64,000 nucleotides of DNA from Auritidibacter ignavus (GTDB lineage: Bacteria > Actinomycetota > Actinomycetes > Actinomycetales > Micrococcaceae): positions 62,001 through 126,000 of the forward strand of contig NZ_RDQR01000004.1 of the NCBI RefSeq assembly GCF_003703835.1, in the 5' to 3' direction. Below are positions 30,956-43,891 of the stretch, one piece after another. Below the pieces are notes generated by a model. That model saw only the letters and a program-made list of their open reading frames with translations, searched no databases and was not told the DNA's origin. Positions within the stretch are counted from its first letter, which is position 1, and the number at the start of each line of letters is the position of its first letter. The translations under genes and the position numbers were made by a program.

Positions 30956-31968
30956 CGGTTACCGTAATACTCGGCGGTGAGTTCTAGCCCGCGGTCAATG
31001 CTGATCTCGGGTTTCCAGGCCAAAACCTCACGGGTACGACGCTGGTCGAACCAGTGGGCGGTGGAGAGCTGTTCGGCGAGAAACCGGGTCAGTGGGGGCT
31101 CATCGTCATGTTCTCCGGTGAGGTCCCAGATCTTTTCAATCACGGCTCCAGCGACGGTGGCCAGCCCGGCCGGTAATCGCAAGGTGGGTTCTACAGCGCC
31201 ACCGGCGATGGCAATCTGACGAATCAGTTCACCGACCGGACGGGGTTCCCCGTTGGTGACGACCAGGGCTTCACCGTGGTGGTTTTCGATAGCTGACACG
31301 GCTGCGAGCACCGCCGAGATAGCGTTGTCGATAAACAGCGTGTCGATCGGTGGGGCACCGGAACCCAGGATGGGCATACGGTGGCTGCGGGCGCGATCGG
31401 TGATGCGTTCGGTCAGCTGGGTATCACCAGGGCCCCACATCAGATGGGGGCGAAGCACCAGCACACGGAAGTCTTCGCGGTCAGCTGCAAGGACCAGGCG
31501 CTCACCGGCTGCTTTGGTTGCGGCGTAGTGCCCGCGTGCCTGGTCGGGGTCGGCCGGTTGGGCGGTGGTACCCACCAGAGAGCGACCGGCGTGAGCGACC
31601 GAGGGAGAGGATATGTGAATCCAGCGGTTCACCGTTCCCGCCCGGTGTGCAGCATCTAGCAGGTTGCCCGTGCCCTGAATGTTGACGTTACGGTACGCTT
31701 CGGCCGGACCCGAAACAGAAACCTTGGCGGCTACGTGGATGATGGTGTCTACACCCTGGACCGCGCGGGCAACCAGTTCCGGGTCGGTGATCGATCCCAG
31801 CACGTCGTAAGCGCCGGCGATCCCGCTTCGGCGACGCTGCAACGTGGTTAGCTGTGCGCCGGCAGCGACCAGCGCGGATGCGACACCGGAACCCAGCAGT
31901 CCCGAGGCTCCGGTGACCAGGACATGACGCGTGCTGAGATTGGGCAGAGCAACGGCGAAACGATTCAT
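30952..31968 (-). CDS. oleD: OleD-like NAD(P)-dependent 2-alkyl-3-oxoalkanoate reductase
   Basis: In olefin synthesis OleD reduces the beta-keto acid made by OleA to a beta-hydroxy acid. 338 residues, an extended short-chain dehydrogenase: nucleotide-binding VTGASGLLGSGVA, and the catalytic Tyr and Lys in GHYAATKAAGE. The reading frame is intact and of normal length. Its ATG overlaps the oleBC stop by 4 bases, so it was translationally coupled. With oleBC and oleA broken, its original substrate is probably not made. Confidence 0.85.
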   Translation of the reverse strand: MNRFAVALPNLSTRHVLVTGASGLLGSGVASALVAAGAQLTTLQRRRSGIAGAYDVLGSITDPELVARAVQGVDTIIHVAAKVSVSGPAEAYRNVNIQGTGNLLDAAHRAGTVNRWIHISSPSVAHAGRSLVGTTAQPADPDQARGHYAATKAAGERLVLAADREDFRVLVLRPHLMWGPGDTQLTERITDRARSHRMPILGSGAPPIDTLFIDNAISAVLAAVSAIENHHGEALVVTNGEPRPVGELIRQIAIAGGAVEPTLRLPAGLATVAGAVIEKIWDLTGEHDDEPPLTRFLAEQLSTAHWFDQRRTREVLAWKPEISIDRGLELTAEYYGNR

Positions 31969-34629
31969 GGCTTGCCAACCTTTCCTCCGGTGAGGACTCG
32001 ATCGGCCCAGCGGGCCAACCGGGAGCGGTCAATCTTGGAGTTATGGCGGGTATCCACCGGGATGCTGTCGACTACCAATACGGCGGCGACCGGAACATCT
32101 CCCGGTGTGGTGACCGCGCTGCGCACGGTTGCCGTCAGTTGGGTGGGAGCCAGTCCAGGCTTGATTGGGCCAGTGACCTCACGCTCGGGTTCGATAATGA
32201 CCACCAGCGCTTGGGTGCCGGCCGGTCCGTGTCCGACAGCTGCAGCCCGGTATACCTCTGGTAATGCGGCGACGTTTTCTTCGATGTGCACCGGACCCAG
32301 GGGTCCAGCCGGGGTGGAGATGACGTGGTGGGTGCGTCCTTCGATCCAGAGTCGGCCGTGCGCATCCAGGTGCCCGATATCGCCGGTGCGGTGCCAGCGT
32401 AACCCGTCGAGCTGATCGTGGGAGGCTTGAGCGGTGATGTACCACAGTGCGTCATAGCCTTGGCGCATATGGGAGGCCGACACCACGATTTCGCCCAGCT
32501 GGTCCACCGAATCCTCGGGGTTATACAGTGTTTCGGCCGGGATACCATGGTCATCCAGCGGGGCCATGGTAAGGCGGACTTCACCGGCCGGGGTGCCCAC
32601 CAGTACACCGGGGTTGCCAGCGGCTCGGTCATGCCATACGGGGAGTGGATCTCGGCTTGTGGCATCAACACCTGAATATCTCTGACTAGGTCCTGGGACA
32701 CCGGAGCCCCGGCCGAGAGCATCATGGTAATCCCGGCCAGTGCTTCGCGCTGGGCACGGGAGAGTTCCCGGGCGGTTGCTGCCACATTGCGCAATGCCGC
32801 CGGGGAACCAAAGGCGATCGTGGACTGACCGGCAATGGCCGCATCGGCCAGAGCAGAGGCGGTCAGGGTTGCCGGTTTGGTGACCGACATGCGCGGGGTG
32901 ACCGAGGTCGCACCAATGGCCGGGCCCAGCAGCGCGAAGGGCGCGAACCCAGCCAAAAGCGAGGCGCCGGGAGTGACGCCGAAGGTATCGCGCAACAGCT
33001 GGGTGAGGTGGGAGAGCCCGGTGTGGGTGTAGCGCACACCCTTGGCCGGCCCGGTGGAGCCGGAGGTGAACAGGATGGCGGCCAGACTCTCGGGGTCCGG
33101 GGTGGGAGCCTGTAGGGCTGAAAGCCGGGTAGTGGTTTTCTCGCGCAGTGCCATACCATAGAGCGAGTCTTCGACGCCCAGTACGCCAGCCAGCGGAGTG
33201 GACAGGGTGGACACCGAGATGCGACGGCCTGGCCATCCCTGGGCGCGAGCCAGGATCAGTCCGGGGGTTTCACCAATAATCCAGTCCGGGTTGGCGCTAC
33301 GAACAGCTCGGGTCATACCGGTGATCCCCAGCCCTTGATCGGCAATTACCGCGACACCGCCGATGCGCAACAGTGCGTAAAGTCCCGCGGTCAGATCACG
33401 TCCGGGAGGAACCAGGATGCAGACCCGGTCCCCGGGGCGCAGTCCAAGATCCCACAGCCCCTGGGCTATGGCGGCCACGAGCTGGGAAAGCTGAGCCCAG
33501 GAAACGGTGAAGGGTTTTCCGCGGTCGCTGACCGACATATCCACCAGGGCCGCAGCTGCGGAGTCTTCGCCACGGTACAGGAACTCCCACAGTGGCTGGT
33601 AGGGCACCTCGTGGGCTGAGCCGGCGGGGCGGGGTTGGTTGGCAGAGTGACCACTGTGTGTGATGGTGGCGGTGGTGTTGACGGTAGGAGAGTTGTCGTC
33701 GGCGGAGAGTTGTTGGGAGACCCATTCCAGGACGATAGCGGCGTAGTCGACGTCTTCGACGATCAGGTGCCCGCCGGTTTCCACTCGGTGCACATCGGCT
33801 TGAGGCAGGCGTTGGCGCAAATCGTTGAGGTAGCGATCCTGGAATACCGGATCTGTAGCACCCCAGATGATCAGGGCCGGTAACGAGGTCTCGCTGAGTG
33901 CTGTGGCCACTCGGCGGAGCGCAGGAGCACTGCGGTGGGTGGCATCAGTGGGGATGTCGGCGACGAACCCGCCCACACCGCCACGGTCGGCTTGGCGCCG
34001 GTAAGGCAGGTTCAGTGGATCGCGCACCGCAGGGGAGCAGGAAGGGGATCGTCCTCGGACTGGTGCACGGCCGTGTTCAGTGTCATCAGCCCGGCGAGGT
34101 GATGGGATCCAGCCTGATGCGCTCGCAGAGCAGCGCCCAAGGAGATGACCCCGCCCCAGTCGTGGCCGAGGGTGAAGACCGGGTGCTCAGCTTCCGGGAT
34201 GAGAACTGTGAGCAATTCCTGCAGATCGGTGATCCGATCCTCCAGGGCCAGGTAGTCGCCACCATTGCCGCTGTGACGAGGCAGTCGCCGGTGGGCTAAC
34301 CGGTCGGAGAGTCCCATGTCCCGCTGGTCGGGGGCGATCACCCGGATGACTGGGTATCGTTGTGGGTCGGAGACGGCCCGGTCGTAGGTGGTGTTGAGCA
34401 ATGCGCGCCACAGATACGACCAGGTGGGGTTGCCGTGTACGGCCACGATGGTGGCGTGGGGGGTCAGTCCCTGGGCTTCGAGAGCCGGGCCGGTGTCCAT
34501 GACGTGGAAGCCGGCGGGATGTTCTGCTCGTGCGAGAGTGACCAGGTGAGAAAACTCTGGACGGAAACCGGGAAGCTCGGTCTGCATGGTCTCGGAGTCG
34601 GGTTGATGGGCGGCACGAGTCACAATCAC
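31965..34629 (-). pseudogene. oleBC: Broken oleBC fusion (OleB hydrolase + OleC ligase)
   Basis: Remnant of the OleB-OleC fusion described in Micrococcus: an alpha/beta hydrolase (beta-lactone decarboxylase) joined to an AMP-dependent beta-lactone synthetase. Three frames are needed to read it. The first carries VAVHGNPTWSY and the nucleophile motif LGHDWGGV and stops after PLPAPLRCAIH near 34012. The second resumes at VRDPLNLPYRR and carries GGHLIVED and the ligase motif LFTSGSTGPAKG, up to SPYGMTEPLA near 32610. The third carries GVLVGTPAGEV to the end. At both breaks residues are missing relative to known homologues, so these are out-of-frame deletions. Confidence 0.85.
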
Positions 34630-34672
34630 AGCAACACTCTTCTTTCTCGAGGGTGTGGACCGGGTGGGGCTA

Positions 34673-35467
34673 TTACCACTGCAGATCGAGCATGGCCACG
34701 TTGAGTCCGGAGCCAACACCCATGCACAACACAGAATCGCCGGGGCTCAGCATGTCTTTTTCCCGGGCCAAGGTCACCGGTAGCGCGGCGGGTCCGATAT
34801 TGCCCAAATCCGGGAACGTGACCGGGATCTTGTCTGGGTCAATCCCGGCGGCCTGAATAATGGCGTTGGTGTGCTGGGAGGAGACCTGGTGGGTGATGTA
34901 GCGGTCGGCCTCGGACCACTTCCATGCCGGGTCGGCGTCGTTCCAGGCAGCCATGACCAGGTCGAGACCATTGGCTAGCAGAGCCGCGGAGTCGGTGCTC
35001 ATGCCCTTATGGTCTCCGGCGCACAAATGGTTGAACTCGGTACCTGCCCGGGTGACGCTGTGCAGGATGCGGTGCCCCTCGGGGTGACGGTCGCTCGGCC
35101 CAATAACCGCAGCGGCGGCCCCTGATCCCAGGGTCAGGGTGGCGAATTGGGAGAGGAAGGCATCGCGGTTGGTGGCTTCGTGTACCTTGGAAGCATCTTC
35201 TCCGGCAACGACCACCACCTAGTCCACTTGTCCTGAATCAATCATGGTCGCGGCCAACCCCATCCCGTTGACAAATCCCAGGCAGGCGTTGGTGATGTCA
35301 AAGTTCATGGCCGAGCTCGGCAGTCCCATTTTGTCGTGAACCACCACGGACACCGCTGGTTCCAGGTGGGTGCGGATGACCGAGGTGTTGATCAAAAGCC
35401 CCACCTGGTCTGGGGTAGGGCACGATGACGCGGAGACTTCAGTTTCGCGGAACCAGGTCTGGGGCAA
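34673..35467 (-). pseudogene. oleA: Broken oleA (thiolase-fold condensing enzyme)
   Basis: OleA condenses two fatty acyl-CoAs head to head. The catalytic Cys in TNACLGFVNGM, the His in ITHQVSSQH and the NIGPA motif remain, but a TAG stop interrupts the frame at 35219-35221, exactly where homologues have Tyr in GxIDYALVVDGE. The 5' part is also missing: only about 22 residues precede VGLLINTSV (90 or so are usual), and the same frame meets a stop at 35519-35521. A downstream GTG could give only a fragment lacking the active-site cysteine. Confidence 0.87.
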
Positions 35468-35575: not shown

Positions 35576-36571
35576 TTACACCCCGCACAGCGTCAGGGCT
35601 GCCGGGACAATCAACAGGCAGGCTGCCAGGGTGATGATCAGGGCTTGTTGCCAACCGGGTAGAGGGGGGCGGCTGGAGAGGAGCCGTTTGAGTCGTACCG
35701 CGGTTACCGAGGTAGTGCGGTCGGCCGGCTGGTCCGAGGAGAGGGGTTTGGCGATGGTATGTGGGGAGTCGTGGCTGGCAACCATGGCCATAGACCGGAT
35801 TAAGGTCGCGCGATCGATGCGCGCCAGAGCTGCATCATCGGCAAGCATCTCGGTGAGCGTGGTCACCGCAATCCGTGAGGTCTCGGTGGCGACCAGCCAG
35901 GATGCCGCCCGGTGCCAGGCCTCAAACCCCACCCGCAATAGGTCGTGACGCTGACGCAAATGGGCCTTTTCATGTTCGATCACCGCTGACAATTCGGCCT
36001 CGGTTAGTCGCTCCATCAATCCCTGAGAGATCACGGTATACGAGCCGGACAGTGCGGGAATGCAGTAGGCCAGCGGGTGCTCGGAGGGGAGCAACAAAGT
36101 GGTGACGCCACCGGAATTGCGTTGGTATGGGGTCAGGGTCTCAGAGGCCGTGGGGTCGTGGATGACTTCGGAGAGTAACTGCACCGTCTCGCGGTGGCGA
36201 CGACGCTCCAGGGTGGTTCGCCATGCGGAGTACACCAGGCTCAGCACCAGATGTACGCCGATGGCGACTGCCAGGGTTCCAGCCACGATCTCTAGCCCAC
36301 CCCAGCGTGGGTCGAGGTGGAGAGCGAATAAACCGTGGTTGGTGATCGCCTCGAATATTTCTGTCCCGGCAGGGATGAGCCCGGAGCCGAATTTGCGGAC
36401 TGCATAGAGCAAGGGTGCTGAAATCAGGGCTAGACCGCCACCGAGCCCCACCGCTTGCCATAAAATCATCGCTGCCACGGGAGCGCGAGCAGGCCACTGG
36501 GCGCGCCCCAGAAGCACAGGTACGGGCCAGGCCAATAGCACGGCCACGAGGGCGAGAAGAATGGGGGCCAT
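35576..36571 (-). CDS. M56 family membrane metallopeptidase (BlaR1-like, no ligand domain)
   Basis: 331 residues with membrane helices near both ends and in between, and the zinc-binding motif EHEKAHLRQRHD between them. BlaR1/MecR1 proteins use such a protease domain to trigger cleavage of the BlaI repressor. Here the C-terminus ends with a single last helix, so the extracellular penicillin-binding sensor is absent and the signal is not evident. Encoded 69 bp downstream of the BlaI-type regulator on the same strand. Confidence 0.88.
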   Translation of the reverse strand: MAPILLALVAVLLAWPVPVLLGRAQWPARAPVAAMILWQAVGLGGGLALISAPLLYAVRKFGSGLIPAGTEIFEAITNHGLFALHLDPRWGGLEIVAGTLAVAIGVHLVLSLVYSAWRTTLERRRHRETVQLLSEVIHDPTASETLTPYQRNSGGVTTLLLPSEHPLAYCIPALSGSYTVISQGLMERLTEAELSAVIEHEKAHLRQRHDLLRVGFEAWHRAASWLVATETSRIAVTTLTEMLADDAALARIDRATLIRSMAMVASHDSPHTIAKPLSSDQPADRTTSVTAVRLKRLLSSRPPLPGWQQALIITLAACLLIVPAALTLCGV

Positions 36572-36640
36572 AACAACGTGGGTCGAGAATGCGACGAATG
36601 GGCGGACGGCGTTGCGGTTAAGGGACTGAGCCCCTCTAGT

Positions 36641-37030
36641 TTACTGACTGAGTGATTCGTCGCGAGCATTCAGGATGCTCCGAAGAGTCGCGAGTTCCTC
36701 AGAGTTAATGGAGCCCACAAATTGAGCAAGCACCGCTTGACGATCTGGCGCCTGGTTGAGGACCTCGTGCAAAACATCAGCGGTGTGGGCTTCCCGGGTT
36801 GCTCGGGCGGTGAAGGTGTGCGGACGCTGTTGCTGGTCCTTATTCACAAAACCTTTTTTCGTCAGCCGGGTCAGCACCGTCAGGATCGTGGTGATCGCCG
36901 GAGTATTCTTGGTGGAGCCGGTACGCTGCTCTAATCGCTCGCGTAAGTCATTAGCGGTCATCGGCGCAGAGGAATCCCACAGCAGATTCATGACGGCTTG
37001 TTCCAGCTGTCCTAATGAACCAGTGTTCAT
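36641..37030 (-). CDS. BlaI/MecI/CopY family transcriptional repressor
   Basis: 129-residue winged-helix repressor: LGQLEQAVMNLLWDSSAPMTANDLRERL, then TILTVLTRLTKKGFV for the recognition helix and wing, and a C-terminal dimerisation helix. It pairs with the M56 peptidase downstream and is divergent from cydA. Three dyads of the form TTCTAC-N5-GTAGAA lie in the intergenic region, one just upstream of this gene, which fits autoregulation and control of cydABDC. Confidence 0.92.
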   Translation of the reverse strand: MNTGSLGQLEQAVMNLLWDSSAPMTANDLRERLEQRTGSTKNTPAITTILTVLTRLTKKGFVNKDQQQRPHTFTARATREAHTADVLHEVLNQAPDRQAVLAQFVGSINSEELATLRSILNARDESLSQ

Positions 37031-37072
37031 ACTCTGTACTCCTTGGGGCTGACGGTCACGGTAGTAGATTTA

Positions 37073-37089
37073 TTCTACGCATTGTAGAA
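37073..37089. promoter_or_regulatory. Predicted BlaI operator 1 (blaI side)
   Basis: TTCTACGCATTGTAGAA: 6-bp arms with 5-nt spacing, starting 43 bp upstream of the blaI start. Same TTCTAC-N5-GTAGAA form as the two dyads nearer cydA. Confidence 0.6.
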
Positions 37090-37229
37090 GTTTCGGTGCA
37101 CTATGACGACATAGTGGCCTGATGCCATATCCACGACCGTTGCTCTCGGGTGCTTTTCACGGGGCGCGCCTGCTTGATCTGCGTCATACGCTACCGGGGC
37201 ACCGTGTGTTGACCTCAGTCTAGGCGAAT

Positions 37230-37248
37230 TTTCTACAACGTGTAGAAA
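37230..37248. promoter_or_regulatory. Predicted BlaI operator 2 (cydA side)
   Basis: Inverted repeat TTTCTACA/TGTAGAAA with a 3-nt centre. It contains TACA-N3-TGTA, the general core of BlaI/CopY sites, and the TTCTAC-N5-GTAGAA form shared with the other two dyads. Confidence 0.65.
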
Positions 37249-37250
37249 TC

Positions 37251-37271
37251 TTTTCTACGCAGCGTAGAAAA
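37251..37271. promoter_or_regulatory. Predicted BlaI operator 3 (cydA side)
   Basis: Nine-bp arms TTTTCTACG/CGTAGAAAA around CAG. It begins 2 bp after operator 2; the two centres are about 22 bp apart, two helical turns, so bound dimers would lie on the same face. Confidence 0.65.
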
Positions 37272-37276
37272 GTGGT

Positions 37277-37282
37277 TATGAT
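37277..37282 (+). promoter_or_regulatory. Possible cydA -10 element
   Basis: TATGAT lies 5 bp after operator 3. The -35 region would then be inside operator 3 (no good TTGACA is present there), so a bound repressor would block it. The leader to the cydA start would be about 185 nt. Confidence 0.4.
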
Positions 37283-37471
37283 GGTGGTAGCTTATCCGGC
37301 GATCAAGCGTTGTACGGAGTGAGTCTCACTGCGAGCATCGTGTCGTATCACCGTTTGAGCCTCGAGTTTGAGGCCTTGGCGACAGGGTTTTGACCGAGGT
37401 CGACCACAGCCGAACTCGACCCATCTCTTGCATTCGTCGGCGCGTTAGGCGCTCGTGAGGAAGGAATCCTG

Positions 37472-39058
37472 ATGGATCCACTTGAGGTAGCCCGGTGGCA
37501 ATTCGGTATCACGACCGTTTACCACTTCCTGATGGTTCCATTGACAATCGGCCTCGGTATTGTGCTGGTGTCAATGCAGACCATGTGGCATCGCACCGGT
37601 AAAGAACACTATTTACGCATGACGAAGTTCTGGGGCAAGATCTTTTTGATCAACTTCATCATGGGTGTAGCCACCGGTATTGTCCAGGAGTTCCAGTTCG
37701 GAATGGCCTGGAGCGAATACTCCCGGTTCGTTGGCGACGTTTTCGGTGCCCCGCTGGCCATGGAAGCTCTGATCGCATTCTTCTTGGAATCGGTCTTCCT
37801 CGGTATCTGGATTTTCGGCTGGGGCAGAATTTCCCCTCGTTTGCATTTAGCGACTCTGTGGGCCGCGGTGATTGGTTCGGTGGTGTCGGCCTATTTCATT
37901 CTGGCCGCAAACGCCTTCATGCAGCACCCAGTCGGCATTGAATACGCCGATGGTCGAGCTCAGATGATCGATATCTGGGCCGTGCTAACTAACCCCACCT
38001 TGTTGGTGCACTTCCCCCATACCATTTTCGGCGCCCTGTCCGTGGCCGGCTCCATGCTTTTCGGTGTGGCCTGGTACCACCTGTGGAAGCGTCGCAAAGA
38101 CGGTATCGACTCCGTCAACACCAACGGCGAAGTGATCATTGGTGCCACCGGCTCCAAAGCTCGTGACGGTATTGACCATACCGTGTGGCGGACCTCGTTC
38201 CGCTGGGGTGGTTGGATCGCCCTGGGTGCCTTCCTAGGCACGGCCTTTACCGGTCACGCTCAAGCTCAAATGATGATCGAACAGCAACCGATGAAAATGG
38301 CAGCCGCTGAAGCTGCCTGCCACGACGGGACCGGTTTCTCGGTGCTGACGGTCGGAGATATTTCCAATACCGACGGAGCCACCACCTGTGATGACGTGGT
38401 GGGCGTCTTTGAGATTCCGGGCCTGCTGTCCTACCTGGCCTACGGCGACTTCAACACCGACGTCCCCGGTGTGAACACCCTGATCCCGATTTATGAAGAA
38501 AACTTCGGTACCCACCTGCCCGACGACCCCATGTACGGTGAACGTGCCGGGTCAGAGATTGAGTACCTGCCGGTCATGGAAGTCACCTACTGGGGCTTCC
38601 GGCTGATGATCACCTTTGGTGGTCTGGCGGCCTTGGCAGCCGCTATTGGACTCTTCCTGGGGCGCAAGGGCACCGTGCCGCAAACTCCGTGGCTGATGCA
38701 CGCCGCCTGGCTGTCGATCCTGGCACCGTTTGGCGCCAACGCGGCCGGTTGGATCTTCACGGAAATGGGGCGTCAACCCTTCACGGTCGCCCCCAACCCC
38801 GACCCCACCGGAGTGGATCAGGTCTGGCAGTTTACCGCTGCCGCGGTGTCACCGGGAGTCGACGGGCGTGAGATTTTGTTCTCGCTGATCGTCCTCACTC
38901 TGGTTTATGCGGTGTTGCTGGTGGTCGAAGTGGTTCTGTTGGTCCGTTACATCCGCGGTGGTGTGCCGGCAGGTATGCCGGAGCTGACTGCAGATGAAGA
39001 AAACGACGGGGATGACCAGAACAAAGATTCCTCTGATGTTCTGTCCTTCGCGTACTAA
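37472..39058 (+). CDS. cydA: Cytochrome bd quinol oxidase subunit I
   Basis: Haem-bearing subunit of the high-affinity terminal oxidase in the cytoplasmic membrane; oxidises menaquinol and reduces oxygen. 528 residues. Shows RWQFGITTVYHFLMVPLTIG at the N-terminus with a haem-ligand His, and GWIFTEMGRQPF next to the quinol-binding loop. ATG start with GAGGAAGGA. First gene of cydA-cydB-cydDC. Confidence 0.97.
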   Translation: MDPLEVARWQFGITTVYHFLMVPLTIGLGIVLVSMQTMWHRTGKEHYLRMTKFWGKIFLINFIMGVATGIVQEFQFGMAWSEYSRFVGDVFGAPLAMEALIAFFLESVFLGIWIFGWGRISPRLHLATLWAAVIGSVVSAYFILAANAFMQHPVGIEYADGRAQMIDIWAVLTNPTLLVHFPHTIFGALSVAGSMLFGVAWYHLWKRRKDGIDSVNTNGEVIIGATGSKARDGIDHTVWRTSFRWGGWIALGAFLGTAFTGHAQAQMMIEQQPMKMAAAEAACHDGTGFSVLTVGDISNTDGATTCDDVVGVFEIPGLLSYLAYGDFNTDVPGVNTLIPIYEENFGTHLPDDPMYGERAGSEIEYLPVMEVTYWGFRLMITFGGLAALAAAIGLFLGRKGTVPQTPWLMHAAWLSILAPFGANAAGWIFTEMGRQPFTVAPNPDPTGVDQVWQFTAAAVSPGVDGREILFSLIVLTLVYAVLLVVEVVLLVRYIRGGVPAGMPELTADEENDGDDQNKDSSDVLSFAY

Positions 39059-39095
39059 ATGAGAGAACCCAGTAGAGAAAGGTAATCACGCCATC

Positions 39096-40115
39096 ATGGA
39101 ATTTCTTCCCACCCTGTGGTTCATCCTCATTGCAGTGCTCTGGACCGGATACCTCGTGCTTGAGGGTTTCGACCTCGGTGTCGGAATGCTCATGAAGTTC
39201 TGGGCTCGCAACGAGTCCCAACGTCGTGTGTTGCTGAACACGATTGGCCCCGTGTGGGACGGCAACGAAGTGTGGTTGATCACCGCCGGTGGCGCCACCT
39301 TCGCGGCTTTCCCAATGTGGTACGCCTCGTTGTTCTCAACCCTCTACATCCCGCTGACCCTGGCCCTGCTGGGGCTCATCTTCCGCGCGGTCGCGATCGA
39401 GTATCGGGGCAAAGCCCACACCACACGAGTGCGTAACTTGTGGGATTGGGCACTGTGTCTCGGGTCGTTGACGGCAGCCTTCTGTGTCGGGGCGATGCTG
39501 GCCATCACCACCACCGGTCTGCCACTGAATGAGAACGGTGACCGAGTGGGTCACGCCTTCGTCTGGCTGAACTCTTGGGCTGTGATCGGCGGACTGGCCG
39601 TGGTTGGTTTCGCCTTGGCTCAGGGATGGGCCTTCCTCGGCCTGAAGACCATGGGCGCTCCACGAGCAGCCGCCAAACGCCACCTGTCCCGGTGGCTGTG
39701 GGTCTACCTGTTACCGATGGCCGGCTGGGCTGTCGGTGTCCTGATCCTCTACCCGAAGGTGATGCCGTGGATCCTGCTTGTTGTCGCCGTGGCAGGCATG
39801 ATTGCCGCACTGGTTTTTGCGGCCCAGGAACGTGAAGGTTGGGCCTTCTTTGGGATGACGGTCTTCGTTGCCGCCGGTGTGGCAGCGATCTTCTGGGCGC
39901 TGTACCCCAATGTGTTGCCCTCTACGCTCAACGACGCGTGGAACCTTACCGTCAACAACGCCTCCTCCTCGGATTACACGTTGACCGTGATGGCCGTGGT
40001 CGCAGCGATCTTCGTGCCGATCGTTTTGGCGTACAGTAGCTGGAGTTACTGGGTGTTCCGCAAGCGGATCGCCGAAACCCATATCCCTGAATCCAAGGTC
40101 GTGACTCCGGTCTGA
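39096..40115 (+). CDS. cydB: Cytochrome bd quinol oxidase subunit II
   Basis: Partner of CydA. 339 residues, mostly membrane helices; the start LWFILIAVLWTGYLVLEGFD and GPVWDGNEVWL are diagnostic. 37 bp after cydA, preceded by GAAAGG. Confidence 0.97.
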   Translation: MEFLPTLWFILIAVLWTGYLVLEGFDLGVGMLMKFWARNESQRRVLLNTIGPVWDGNEVWLITAGGATFAAFPMWYASLFSTLYIPLTLALLGLIFRAVAIEYRGKAHTTRVRNLWDWALCLGSLTAAFCVGAMLAITTTGLPLNENGDRVGHAFVWLNSWAVIGGLAVVGFALAQGWAFLGLKTMGAPRAAAKRHLSRWLWVYLLPMAGWAVGVLILYPKVMPWILLVVAVAGMIAALVFAAQEREGWAFFGMTVFVAAGVAAIFWALYPNVLPSTLNDAWNLTVNNASSSDYTLTVMAVVAAIFVPIVLAYSSWSYWVFRKRIAETHIPESKVVTPV

Positions 40116-40177
40116 AACCAGAACTACCAACCTCTGCGACAGGACGCCGTGCTCTGATAGGGCTCGGCGTCCTCGCC

Positions 40178-43100
40178 GTGGTGAAAGCTCTCGGATGGAT
40201 CCTGATTGCCATCGGGATCGCCCGAGGCATCTCGCAGCTGGCTGCCTCACTGCCCACCCAGGACGCAGCCCAACTCATTGACCTCTTCTTCAATCCTCCG
40301 GCCACCTCACCGGGCATCGTCGAATCACTAGCCCAAGCTGCCTTCACAGCCGAATTCCTCGCTCCCGTGGTGACTGGCTTCGGGGGAGCGGTGTTGCGCG
40401 GTGTCGCCGTCTGGGGCCAACAGGTGTTGGCCTCCCGGGCCGCGCTGGGCGAAAAAGAATATTTGCGCGCCCAGCTGGTCACTCATCGGCTCAACGCCGC
40501 CGGCGAACACGCCGATCGAGCCGGCGAAGACGCGGTACTGGCCTCCAAAGGTCTCGATGGGTTGGATAAGTACTACACCGAGTTCCTGCCGGCCCTACTT
40601 TCCGCCCTGGTCATTCCCGTTCTGCTTGGCGGCTGGATTCTGCTACACGACTGGGTTTCGGCACTCATTTTGGTCATCACTGTGCCCCTGATCCCGGTCT
40701 TTATGATCCTGATCGGTCGGTATACCGAATCCCGGGTCGATGACGCCACCGCGGGGCTCAATCGGCTCTCGCATCACTTATTAGAGCTCGCCCGCGGTCT
40801 GCCCGTGCTCGTTGGGTTGCGCCGTGCTGGGGTGCAGCGGAAGTCCTTGGCGACGGTGTCAGAAAAATACCAACGCACCACCATGTCCACCCTACGAGCC
40901 GCGTTTATGTCCAGCCTGGCTCTGGAACTCATCGCGACCCTGTCGGTGGCGGTGATCGCGGTGTTGATCGGGGTGCGTCTGGTCTACGGGGGACTAGAAC
41001 TCAACGTGGGCCTGATGGTGCTCACCCTGGCCGCGGAAGTATATTTGCCCTTCCGTGATGTTGGCTCTGCCTTCCACTCTTCCGAAGACGGTGTGGACGC
41101 CCTGCGACGCGCTCGCGAACAGATCAACCAGCCCGAAGCCAAAACCCTCGCCGAATCCCTGCGGGCTGAGTCAACCTATGAAACGGGCACTGTCTCCATC
41201 GACAACCTCAGCATTGCCTACCGCTCCTTCACCGAAATCACAGCGGAAAAACTCCCCGATATTCGGGCGCTCCACCACGATGACCCACGACGGGCCAAAG
41301 TGCTGGCCCACAAGAACCATGCGGGCCCGACCCATCGGATGCAGGTGTTAGACCCGGTGGTCACCGGGTTGAGTTTGAGCTTGGCACCGGGAGAAATCAC
41401 CGTGTTCGGTTCGGCCTCGGGGACCGGAAAATCTACGGTGCTCAACGCCTTGGCCGGAGTACTCACCGAGGCCGAAGCAGAATTCCGTGGCAGGGTGAGC
41501 GGCCTCGATGAGCTCCATGTGGCCTGGTTGGCCCAGCACCCCAATTTCAGTGAACCCACCGTGGCCGAGGAATTGGAGTTCTATGTCCGACTGGACCGCC
41601 CTGAGGCCACCGCCGATACCGTCGAGTCCTTGGTGGCTCACGCCTTGGCTACGAGCGGGCTGGTCGACTATCAATCCCGCATCGTCAACGATCTCAGCCC
41701 CGGGGAGCGCCGGCGCCTGGGCTTCGCCCGCGTGGTCATCCGGTTACTCGCCGCCGGTGACGACGCCCGTGGCTGGCTACTGATACTGGATGAGCCCACC
41801 GCCCACTTGGATCCAGCCTCCGCTGACGCCGTCCGGGAGACGCTGGCCACGCTGAGACAACGACGTCTCCCTAAAGCGACCGATCGCACGCACCACGTCG
41901 GCGAGACACCACTGCTTCCACCGATCACGATGGTGGTGGCCTCCCACGATCCCGAAGTGCACCACCTGGCCGACCATTTGGTGGACGGTGCCAGGGTGAC
42001 GACCGATGCCACGACCGTTCAGACCGTGACACACGCTGCGACCACACCGGTAGCAGATACCGTGTCTGCCGGTGCACGAATCACCGACCAGGCGGAGCAT
42101 AGCGCTACCACGCCCCAGAGGTCTTCCCCAGACCACCACAGGGCGCACCAGCCACACGACACCGAGAACCACCGGCTCAACCTGGGACAGTGGTTCCGGT
42201 TCTTGCCGTTGAACCGCGGAAAATTCCTGGCCGGAGTCTTTTGGTCGGCCGCTGCCGTGCTTTCCGCCGCGCTCCTATCGGCCCTGTCCGGATGGCTCAT
42301 TGTGCAGGCCTCTTACCAGCCCCCGATCCTCTATTTGCTGGCCATCATTGTCGCGGTTCGCTTCTTTGGCATCGGCCGGGCCGTGTTTCGTTACGCCGAA
42401 CGCTTGGCGGTCCACGACGCGGTGCTGTCCTGGGCTGATGACTTGCGCCTGAAGATTTGGGACGCTCTAGGCTCCCAGGCGCAACAGTGGACCCGACTGA
42501 CCCGCACCGGTGGCGCCCTGTCGGTGCTGATCTCTGACGTTGACGAACTGCGCGATGCAGTTCCGCGCGTTATCGTCCCCATTCCTGCCGCTGTGATCGC
42601 GTGGTTGGCGACGCTGGGGATAACCATGTACTTCGCCCCCGGAGCCTGGTGGCCCGCCCTGGTTGCCGGACTTTTCGGCATCGTCGTCATCCCGGGCTTG
42701 GTTGCTCTCAGCGATGCGCGGTCGACGGCGATCCTGGCCGATCACCGCACCCAGGTGATGTCGCAAACCTCCCGACTGTTGACAGCGGCCGCAGATTTGG
42801 CCGGCAATGGGGGCGCAACGGTGGCCTCGGAACGCTTTGCCCGCTGGGATCTCCACCACCAGCGCCCCTTGAAACGCCATTCGATGGTTGCCGGCCTCGG
42901 CCAGGGGCTATCCTCATTGGTCTCCGGCTGGGCCGCCATCCAGATCATGTGGGAATGCGTCCAACACGGCATCAACGCCCCTCATACCGCGCTGGTGGTG
43001 ATGATGATGCTCGCCCTCGCCGAGCCCTTCGGACTGTTGAACCAAGGGGTTCAAGAGTTCTCAATTCTCCGCCGGCAACTGCAGAAGATCGGTCCATTAC

Positions 43101-43891
43101 TGCAGACCTCGCAGACCGCCACTGGTGGTTGGGTGCAGGTCGAGGCAGTGCCCACCCCACCGGCGACTGACGACGTGGCTGAACAGAAGCGCGCCCACCA
43201 TCGCGATGTGGTCGTCAGCGCGGTGGAGGTTGACCAGATTGACGTGGCTTATGCGCCACACGGACCGTTAGTACTGGCAGATTTGAGCTTGCAGGCCACC
43301 CGCGGTGACTTTTGTGTGGTTACCGGACCGTCAGGGTCTGGAAAGTCCACGCTGTTGGCGGTACTGCTGGGTTTCTTGCGACCACAATCCGGGCGCATGG
43401 TCCTGCATGCCACCCGGCGCACAGACGCCACCGAGTCCGGTACTGACAGCATCATCGGCCCGGAATCTGCCCTGGGCGCGATCGCCTGGTGCCCGCAGGA
43501 GGCGTATCTTTTTGACTCCACGCTACGCTCCAACCTGGCTCTGGCCCGCGACCCGGATGACCGACCCGAGGATGCCGAGCTCATCCGTGCCCTGAAAACC
43601 GTGGGACTGGCCGACTGGCTCGAGGTGGCCCCGAACGGGCTCGACACTCGACTGGGCCCCTCCGGACATTTTGTCTCCGGCGGTCAACGTCAACGCATCG
43701 CTGTCGCCCGGGCTCTCATCGCTCGTGCTGACGTCGTGCTCTTGGATGAACCCACTGCACACCTAGGTGCCGATGAAGCAGCGCACCTCGTAGCGGATCT
43801 CAAGAGGGCCTTGGCTGATCGAACCGTGGTGATGGTCACCCACGATTCCCGATTCGCCACCGCTGGAAACCAGGCGGTGACGCTGGGTTAG
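40178..43891 (+). CDS. cydDC: Fused CydD-CydC ABC transporter (cytochrome bd assembly)
   Basis: Heterodimeric thiol (cysteine/glutathione) exporter needed to assemble cytochrome bd, here one chain of about 1,237 residues. CydD half: membrane domain, Walker A GSASGTGKST, signature LSPGERRR, Walker B LLILDEPTAHLD. A His/Thr-rich linker follows. CydC half: membrane domain, Walker A GPSGSGKST, signature VSGGQRQR, Walker B VVLLDEPTAHLG. The first conventional start is the GTG at 40178, but the frame is open back to 40091 and the residues RRALIGLGVLAV before it look like part of the first helix. A CTG at 40154 with AGGA 9 bases upstream could be the true start. Confidence 0.93.
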   Translation: MVKALGWILIAIGIARGISQLAASLPTQDAAQLIDLFFNPPATSPGIVESLAQAAFTAEFLAPVVTGFGGAVLRGVAVWGQQVLASRAALGEKEYLRAQLVTHRLNAAGEHADRAGEDAVLASKGLDGLDKYYTEFLPALLSALVIPVLLGGWILLHDWVSALILVITVPLIPVFMILIGRYTESRVDDATAGLNRLSHHLLELARGLPVLVGLRRAGVQRKSLATVSEKYQRTTMSTLRAAFMSSLALELIATLSVAVIAVLIGVRLVYGGLELNVGLMVLTLAAEVYLPFRDVGSAFHSSEDGVDALRRAREQINQPEAKTLAESLRAESTYETGTVSIDNLSIAYRSFTEITAEKLPDIRALHHDDPRRAKVLAHKNHAGPTHRMQVLDPVVTGLSLSLAPGEITVFGSASGTGKSTVLNALAGVLTEAEAEFRGRVSGLDELHVAWLAQHPNFSEPTVAEELEFYVRLDRPEATADTVESLVAHALATSGLVDYQSRIVNDLSPGERRRLGFARVVIRLLAAGDDARGWLLILDEPTAHLDPASADAVRETLATLRQRRLPKATDRTHHVGETPLLPPITMVVASHDPEVHHLADHLVDGARVTTDATTVQTVTHAATTPVADTVSAGARITDQAEHSATTPQRSSPDHHRAHQPHDTENHRLNLGQWFRFLPLNRGKFLAGVFWSAAAVLSAALLSALSGWLIVQASYQPPILYLLAIIVAVRFFGIGRAVFRYAERLAVHDAVLSWADDLRLKIWDALGSQAQQWTRLTRTGGALSVLISDVDELRDAVPRVIVPIPAAVIAWLATLGITMYFAPGAWWPALVAGLFGIVVIPGLVALSDARSTAILADHRTQVMSQTSRLLTAAADLAGNGGATVASERFARWDLHHQRPLKRHSMVAGLGQGLSSLVSGWAAIQIMWECVQHGINAPHTALVVMMMLALAEPFGLLNQGVQEFSILRRQLQKIGPLLQTSQTATGGWVQVEAVPTPPATDDVAEQKRAHHRDVVVSAVEVDQIDVAYAPHGPLVLADLSLQATRGDFCVVTGPSGSGKSTLLAVLLGFLRPQSGRMVLHATRRTDATESGTDSIIGPESALGAIAWCPQEAYLFDSTLRSNLALARDPDDRPEDAELIRALKTVGLADWLEVAPNGLDTRLGPSGHFVSGGQRQRIAVARALIARADVVLLDEPTAHLGADEAAHLVADLKRALADRTVVMVTHDSRFATAGNQAVTLG

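Follow-up and report, generated by a model that had tools for sequence, protein, structure and literature searches.

Among the described systems closest to the locus presented here is PetR/PetP of Synechocystis, a BlaI/BlaR1-type pair which swaps electron carriers with copper (PMC7896320, PMC12292863; statements carrying a PMC number follow the extracts of these papers that we consulted). It is described as consisting, like the pair studied here, of a BlaI-family factor and a BlaR1-family protease, with electron-transfer genes rather than antibiotic resistance as its neighbors and targets (PMC7896320). The likeness is one of description, and the two systems differ in that PetR/PetP acts on plastocyanin and cytochrome c6, with copper as the signal and a regulon of four proteins, whereas here a terminal oxidase and heme genes are concerned. 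In M. tuberculosis, BlaI is stated to bind promoters of the genes for cytochrome bd and for ATP synthase (PMC5473688, which cites Sala 2009); the link between BlaI and cytochrome bd is thus not new. Binding to the promoter of Rv1303 (atp operon) is described on the basis of EMSA and qRT-PCR, with BlaI lowering the M. smegmatis homologue (PMC12565901, 2025). Other regulators are also reported: cydB is placed under SenX3-RegX3, cyd and atp transcripts are up in a sigC mutant in copper-poor medium, and blaI is assigned to the IdeR regulon (PMC7924339). On cholesterol, cydA, cydD and blaI are all down in a published table (PMC7771538), which neither supports nor excludes the model proposed below.

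In the 64-kb window (the whole stretch of DNA that was analyzed), the M56-blaI genes on the - strand (35576-37030) and the cydA-cydB-cydDC genes on the + strand (37472-43891) form a divergent pair of gene groups, and the 441-bp gap between blaI and cydA holds three exact dyads of the form TTCTAC-N5-GTAGAA (Table 1). All three had been named in the original prediction, in which the start of the first (37073) and the 22-bp start-to-start spacing of the other two were right, while the starts of the second and third were 1-2 bases off (37231 and 37253 are the true positions). Domain searches agree with the neighbors named there, namely blaI, the BlaR1-like membrane metalloprotease, cydA and cydB. 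The cydDC gene is a single ORF of 1237 aa, scoring above the cut-off with both the CydD model TIGR02857 (557 bits) and the CydC model TIGR02868 (480 bits). Elsewhere in the window, two overlapping long ORFs of the - strand (31965-34027) resemble, on a reading of the ORF list, one frame-split gene of an AMP-ligase (OleC-like); they are adjoined by hydrolase-like and ketosynthase-like ORFs (34012-35218), making an olefin-hydrocarbon cluster possible.

Table 1. Features of the blaI-cydA region, in window coordinates
Feature	Position	Strand	Basis or remark
Dyad O1, blaI-side predicted BlaI operator	37073..37089		exact TTCTACN5GTAGAA, TTCTACGCATTGTAGAA
Dyad O2, distal predicted cyd operator	37231..37247		exact match, TTCTACAACGTGTAGAA; 22 bp from O3
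Dyad O3, proximal predicted cyd operator	37253..37269		exact match, TTCTACGCAGCGTAGAA; first half coincides with the hexamer located 18 bp upstream of TATGAT
TATGAT, putative -10 of the cyd promoter (tentative)	37277..37282	+	sequence; 7 bases past O3
blaI-type winged-helix regulator, 129 aa	36641..37030	-	PF03965 Penicillinase_R, 76.6 bits
BlaR1-like integral membrane zinc metalloprotease (M56/M48 type), 331 aa	35576..36571	-	HEKAH, PF01435, fold matches
cydA, cytochrome bd subunit I	37472..39058	+	PF01654, E 2.7e-149
cydB, cytochrome bd subunit II	39096..40115	+	PF02322, E 2.2e-96
cydDC, fused ABC exporter for cytochrome bd assembly	40178..43891	+	TIGR02857 and TIGR02868

The dyads overlap promoter-like elements on both sides of the gap, tentatively so on the cyd side. 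O1 covers two -10-like hexamers of the - strand, TACAAT (37086-37081) and TAGAAT (37077-37072), which are located 50 and 41 bp, respectively, before the blaI ATG; the former is the -10 of a promoter-like site on the same strand, TCGTCA-17-TACAAT, and sits within O1. The consensus scan listed no full sigma-70 promoter at TATGAT, and the cyd promoter placed there is therefore tentative. The leader from TATGAT to cydA has 189 bases (37283-37471), which exceeds the ~30-65 bp separating the nearest dyad from cydA in several relatives.

With up to one mismatch allowed, the window contains exactly these three dyads, whereas 100 dinucleotide-preserving shuffles of the window average 0.03 (sd 0.17, maximum 1); at up to three mismatches the count is 22 against 10. 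A genome-wide motif search, suggested in the original prediction, yielded 4 exact copies in the 2.59-Mb genome and 1 copy of the pattern read backwards. At up to two mismatches the backwards pattern is the commoner one (104 vs 52), and loose matches to the dyad are thus background; a one-mismatch dyad within a sodA-like ORF of this genome was treated in the same way. The fourth exact dyad (C48:63343; L221 5344) lies between a gene for a MarP-like protease and a crp-like gene, 124 bp before the latter, a placement present in 1 of the 13 genomes looked at. It is kept only as a possible BlaI target, and with it a possible tie of the pair to a CRP regulator, one chance copy being enough to explain it. 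Upstream of hemQ in the same genome no dyad was found even at up to three mismatches, so the regulon there seems to be a small one, made up of blaI, cyd and perhaps crp.

The regulator belongs to the winged-helix repressors of the BlaI/MecI/CopY type, with 76.6 bits for PF03965 against a gathering threshold of 22.6 (E 2.5e-21), and is the only match in its genome at E <= 0.001. Its sole PDB match at E <= 0.001 is 2g9w, titled conserved hypothetical protein, which we take to be M. tuberculosis BlaI. The M. tuberculosis pair, BlaI (Rv1846c) and BlaR (Rv1845c), is thus like the one described here in having a regulator homologous to 2g9w and a membrane protease without an extracellular sensor, but is set apart by the divergent linkage of the present pair to the cyd operon and by a regulon predicted in relatives that includes heme synthesis, Hmp and oxidase assembly. 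With NF012168 (BlaI sensu stricto), a narrow, exception-type NCBIfam model, the score is 39.3 bits, below the cut-off of 180. The copper-responsive CopY repressors share the PF03965 superfamily and some TIGR02698 (CopY/TcrY) similarity with the window protein, which however reaches only 32.5 bits against the cut-off of 121.95 for that model; no protease partner is known in the classical CopY operon.

The partner protein has four TM-like stretches and a zinc motif, HEKAH, at residues 200-204, with both histidines and the glutamate of HEXXH kept in 79 of 81 aligned proteins. Both the sequence and an AF2 model (pLDDT 86.9) end after the transmembrane helix at residue 331, with no C-terminal penicillin-binding sensor domain and, since the chain stops after this last helix, with no room for one. 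The first five Foldseek matches of the model are S. aureus BlaR1 (probability 1.00, E 1.6e-3 to 7.3e-3, TM score on the query 0.34-0.38), followed by Ste24p/ZMPSTE24. The modeled protease thus resembles the membrane part of BlaR1, minus the beta-lactam sensor. With PF05569 the window protein is not listed at E 0.001, and among three relatives one scores above the threshold (33 vs 31) and two below. Compared with S. aureus BlaR1-BlaI, the regulator family and the fold of the membrane and zinc domain are the same (8exq and 8exr are among the best matches), but S. aureus BlaR1 has a penicillin-binding sensor domain, which the window protease lacks. The staphylococcal BlaI operator is TACA-N2-TGTA (TAC-N4-GTA), and the corresponding spacing here is TAC-N5-GTA. 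A cysteine (Cys170, in AYC-x-P) is invariant in the 81 aligned proteases and a membrane histidine (His107) is kept in 75 of 81; the two residues are leads for a sensor, no more.

The same two proteins could belong to a classical beta-lactam-responsive BlaR1-BlaI system that is a neighbor of cyd by chance. The PF03965 regulator and the BlaR1-like protease fit this, and the BlaR of M. tuberculosis is sensor-less too, yet blaI-blaR transcripts are stated to rise with amoxicillin-clavulanate (PMC5473688). We nevertheless consider it very unlikely, as the 331-aa protease leaves no space for a penicillin-binding domain, the regulator falls far under the NCBIfam BlaI cut-off (39 vs 180), and inspection by eye of the cluster representatives printed for 69 putative target proteins recognized no beta-lactamase.

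The arrangement is conserved in relatives. In the 29 top-ranking BlaI loci of other family species (48-58% identity), M56 and blaI are without exception accompanied by a divergent cydA, and each locus has at least one exact dyad, placed between blaI and cydA. From a scan of named genomes with a BlaI alignment the best 80 of 571 relatives were retained (the named loci), which presumably represent 62 Micrococcaceae (including Arthrobacter, Pseudarthrobacter, Glutamicibacter, Micrococcus, Nesterenkonia and Sinomonas), 16 Microbacteriaceae, one Brevibacterium and one unplaced MAG; on this basis the family of the window is taken to be Micrococcaceae. Among these best 80, an exact dyad is found beside blaI in 79 (L158 has one mismatch) and cydA adjoins in 75. 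The five loci without cydA keep the dyad beside blaI, exactly in L143, L186, L189 and L211 and with the one mismatch in L158. In eight Microbacteriaceae the neighboring cydA is just 44-48% identical to that of the window, with an identical dyad. Three Nesterenkonia loci with no cydA beside blaI (L143 10016, L186 9985, L189 10412) carry a second exact dyad ~3 kb from blaI.

The spacer has five bases in 200 dyad cores of the 80 named loci, where all other lengths from 2 to 9 total 5 cases; the flanking TT/AA are 98-100% fixed, and 71 of 120 gaps between neighboring dyads measure 21-26 bp. In family f6 of the same order the letters are the same and the operator geometry is different: in the two stretches examined, two dyads abut head to tail before cydA, 17 bp apart (L281 2531-2564, L283 2520-2553), with blaI and M56 on the other side. 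As inverted repeats upstream of genes, the dyads might also be RNA hairpins or terminators. This is hardly conceivable, given that no terminator-like site is present, that an Rfam search of 36900-37600 returned no family match, and that the letters of the arms are fixed, not covarying, as is the five-base spacer.

The distribution of the dyad follows that of BlaI (BlaI-positive meaning a match at E <= 0.001, as in 248 of 295 family genomes, with four genomes of genus g12 included). The dyad occurs in 247 of the 248 BlaI-positive genomes and in 5 of the 47 BlaI-negative ones, counts which come from related genomes and hence are not independent observations. The sole BlaI-positive exception, G089 (L301), has a one-mismatch copy in the right place. 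In the five BlaI-negative genomes the dyad is a single copy and never precedes cydA or another recurrent target; these copies either fall within an ORF or at its end, or have no recurrent target for a neighbor, one being near a YceI gene, past its 3' end. Within genus g6 the dyad is present in 9 of 9 genomes with BlaI, in each case between blaI and cydA, vs 0 of 15 without. A cydA match exists in 29 of the 47 BlaI-negative genomes (28 full length, one a fragment), and none of these 29 loci has the dyad, not even CTAC-N5-GTAG, which rules out that the dyad is tied to cydA regardless of blaI. An earlier draw gave exact dyads in 18 of 21 family genomes (the three others are among those without BlaI) and in 0 of 10 genomes of other families; a wider draw found the dyad in 30 of 229 genomes of other families in the order (f6 13, f19 11, f15 4, f8 1, f20 1).

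The prediction that BlaI controls its own gene and the cyd operon gains from this co-occurrence across and within genera, and from the lack of the dyad at cydA where BlaI is absent. The dyads could also be sites of another, unlinked transcription factor governing blaI and cyd. Genus g12 (4 genomes) speaks for this: the sole BlaI match is distant (37-38% identity) and lies with an M56 gene away from cydA, with no dyad at the blaI promoter, while the single genomic dyad of each of the 4 genomes is ~104 bp before cydA (L047, L311, L312 and L313; position 1501). That the dyad comes and goes with BlaI, also within genera, and stays beside blaI where cydA is missing makes another factor highly improbable. 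In g12 the cyd genes have kept the site even as blaI moved and diverged, which fits action of BlaI in trans; the diverged BlaI may act on cyd in this way, the binding protein being less certain there, and the separation of dyad and BlaI offers a natural test of such action. The dyad does not mark every BlaI-M56 pair, since none of the 7 distant pairs located elsewhere than at cyd has a dyad at its own promoter, among them three second, distant pairs in g6 genomes.

Taken as sites of the adjacent BlaI, the dyads point to a wider regulon in relatives. From 13 of the 18 motif-bearing family genomes 48 non-cyd sites were fetched (those of G012 in part only), and 45 of them fall between genes, in loci with a coding share of 89% according to a simple codon-usage script, some of whose ORFs are doubtful. 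The motif is accordingly not scattered without relation to promoters, an outcome that would have spoken against the original prediction, and together with the shuffle expectation of 0.03 this placement rules out chance or a scattered repeat. Heme, oxidase, copper, NO or energy genes adjoin 31 of the 48 sites, as judged from BLAST clustering and reading and with a divergent pair counted if either gene qualifies; the names of targets come from Pfam/NCBIfam for some proteins and from BLAST clustering or reading for the rest. The most frequent is hemQ (9 sites, in 9 of 13 genomes), followed by flavohemoglobin hmp (5 sites: L053, L064, L075, L078 and L083) and copC or copD-ctaG (5 sites, the second gene in two). 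An ABC transporter follows three sites, with ctaA next in L069 (by Pfam) and L088 (by reading), the third being L096. Two sites each belong to a thioredoxin-like gene of the cytochrome c maturation type (one called inside an ORF by the script) and to the hemE/hemA divergent pair, and one each to ctaC, ATP synthase, SURF1, sdhC and sucC. The remaining 17 sites adjoin six small membrane proteins, three pyridoxamine-oxidase-like proteins, YceI, a DedA-like protein, PPK2, a BlaI-type gene and crp, or fall inside genes (two), and one has no plausible target.

The hemQ site was followed in 35 hemQ loci, none of them from BlaI-negative genomes, and the exact dyad is upstream in 23 and a copy with up to two mismatches in 29, against 0 of 35 for the reversed motif, which was the sole control; it commonly lies ~46 bp before the inferred start. 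The ATP synthase site occurs in G008 only, where the dyad is 107 bp before an ORF without a Pfam match, followed by atpB (PF00119) and a c-subunit-like ORF; in the genome of the window an ATP synthase dyad was not seen. The respiratory role proposed in the original prediction, with ATP synthase in M. tuberculosis as its precedent, is a stronger theme than could be known from the window: in relatives the dyads precede genes of heme synthesis, oxidase assembly and NO detoxification, and in one genome the ATP synthase operon. In L064 and L075 the dyad is flanked by an Rrf2/NsrR-like gene and hmp, an arrangement suggestive of control by BlaI together with an NO-type sensor. The dyad is also upstream of a small membrane protein in 4 of 13 genomes (L052 2667-3014, L059, L085 and L093), a candidate respiratory protein, one member of which gave no Pfam or NCBIfam match. 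Outside the family, where many dyads lack such neighbors, 6 of 16 loci (L251-L266) have no neighbor from the target set and 4 more have just an ABC ATPase; in a second set this holds for 5 of 9 stretches, with one more having just an ABC ATPase.

On the grounds of the co-occurrence with BlaI, the conserved placement beside blaI and cydA, and the fixed N5 spacer, we consider it very likely that the BlaI-type repressor encoded next to the three dyads uses them as operators, thereby controlling blaI-M56 and cyd. Conserved at the places expected for a BlaI/MecI/CopY-type system, they are predicted operators. We infer the binding, the repression (rather than activation), the cleavage and the signal alike, and propose the following sequence of events. 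A BlaI dimer would bind each dyad; at O1 it would shut blaI-M56, and at O2 and O3, which are about two helical turns apart, it would shut the promoter of cydAB-cydDC. The M56 zinc protease, devoid of a beta-lactam sensor, would inactivate BlaI in response to an internal signal, probably the failure or remodeling of the respiratory chain (low O2, NO or CN, heme or copper state). The loss of BlaI would then derepress cytochrome bd and the blaI-M56 pair itself, and in relatives the predicted regulon would add heme synthesis, NO detoxification and oxidase assembly.

On the same dyads BlaI might instead be a dual regulator of the PetR kind, activating cyd or some targets and repressing others, with M56 removing it at sufficient copper. 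PetR is described as repressing petE and activating petJ, and PetP as degrading PetR with copper (PMC7896320, PMC12292863), and copC and copD-ctaG are found near dyads in relatives. Such a dual role seems unlikely, as O3 lies over the putative -35 and O1 over the -10-like region, positions at which a dimer on the DNA would ordinarily obstruct RNA polymerase.

The system is best described as a variant linked to cyd whose predicted respiratory regulon is wider. Among the matches listed in a literature search that left out most subscription journals, no paper was found on this dyad or on a Micrococcales BlaI-cyd regulon; a Brachybacterium paper matching both words concerns, in the extract consulted, the gene blaIII, not BlaI (PMC10581053), and PMC12140626 and PMC8125079 contain no mention of BlaI. 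Apparently new, in that they were not found in print among the matches listed, are thus the operator, its linkage across Micrococcales to a BlaI clade adjacent to cyd, and the regulon of heme, NO and oxidase-assembly genes.

A regulator that carries the annotation penicillinase repressor is easily taken for a resistance gene. For the cyd-linked BlaI clade the comparative evidence suggests that respiration and heme supply are run by it, and the sharp predicted operator should allow targets to be foretold by sequence. The conserved system, which occurs in harmless bacteria and is open to experiment, also bears on what sensor-less BlaR-like proteases detect, a question raised for M. tuberculosis as well (PMC5473688). 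A broader interpretation, which we regard as doubtful, is that in Micrococcales the sensor-less BlaI/BlaR-type pair acts as the master switch that selects between terminal oxidases. The protease would then sense copper or heme supply, or respiratory flux, in the membrane (through Cys170 and His107), and the repressor would coordinate the copper-free cytochrome bd with HemQ/HemE/HemA, heme A and SURF1, copper delivery and Hmp. If this were true, the pair would be a respiratory counterpart of cyanobacterial PetR/PetP, and it would suggest that the ancestral role of the family was in electron transport, not in beta-lactam resistance.
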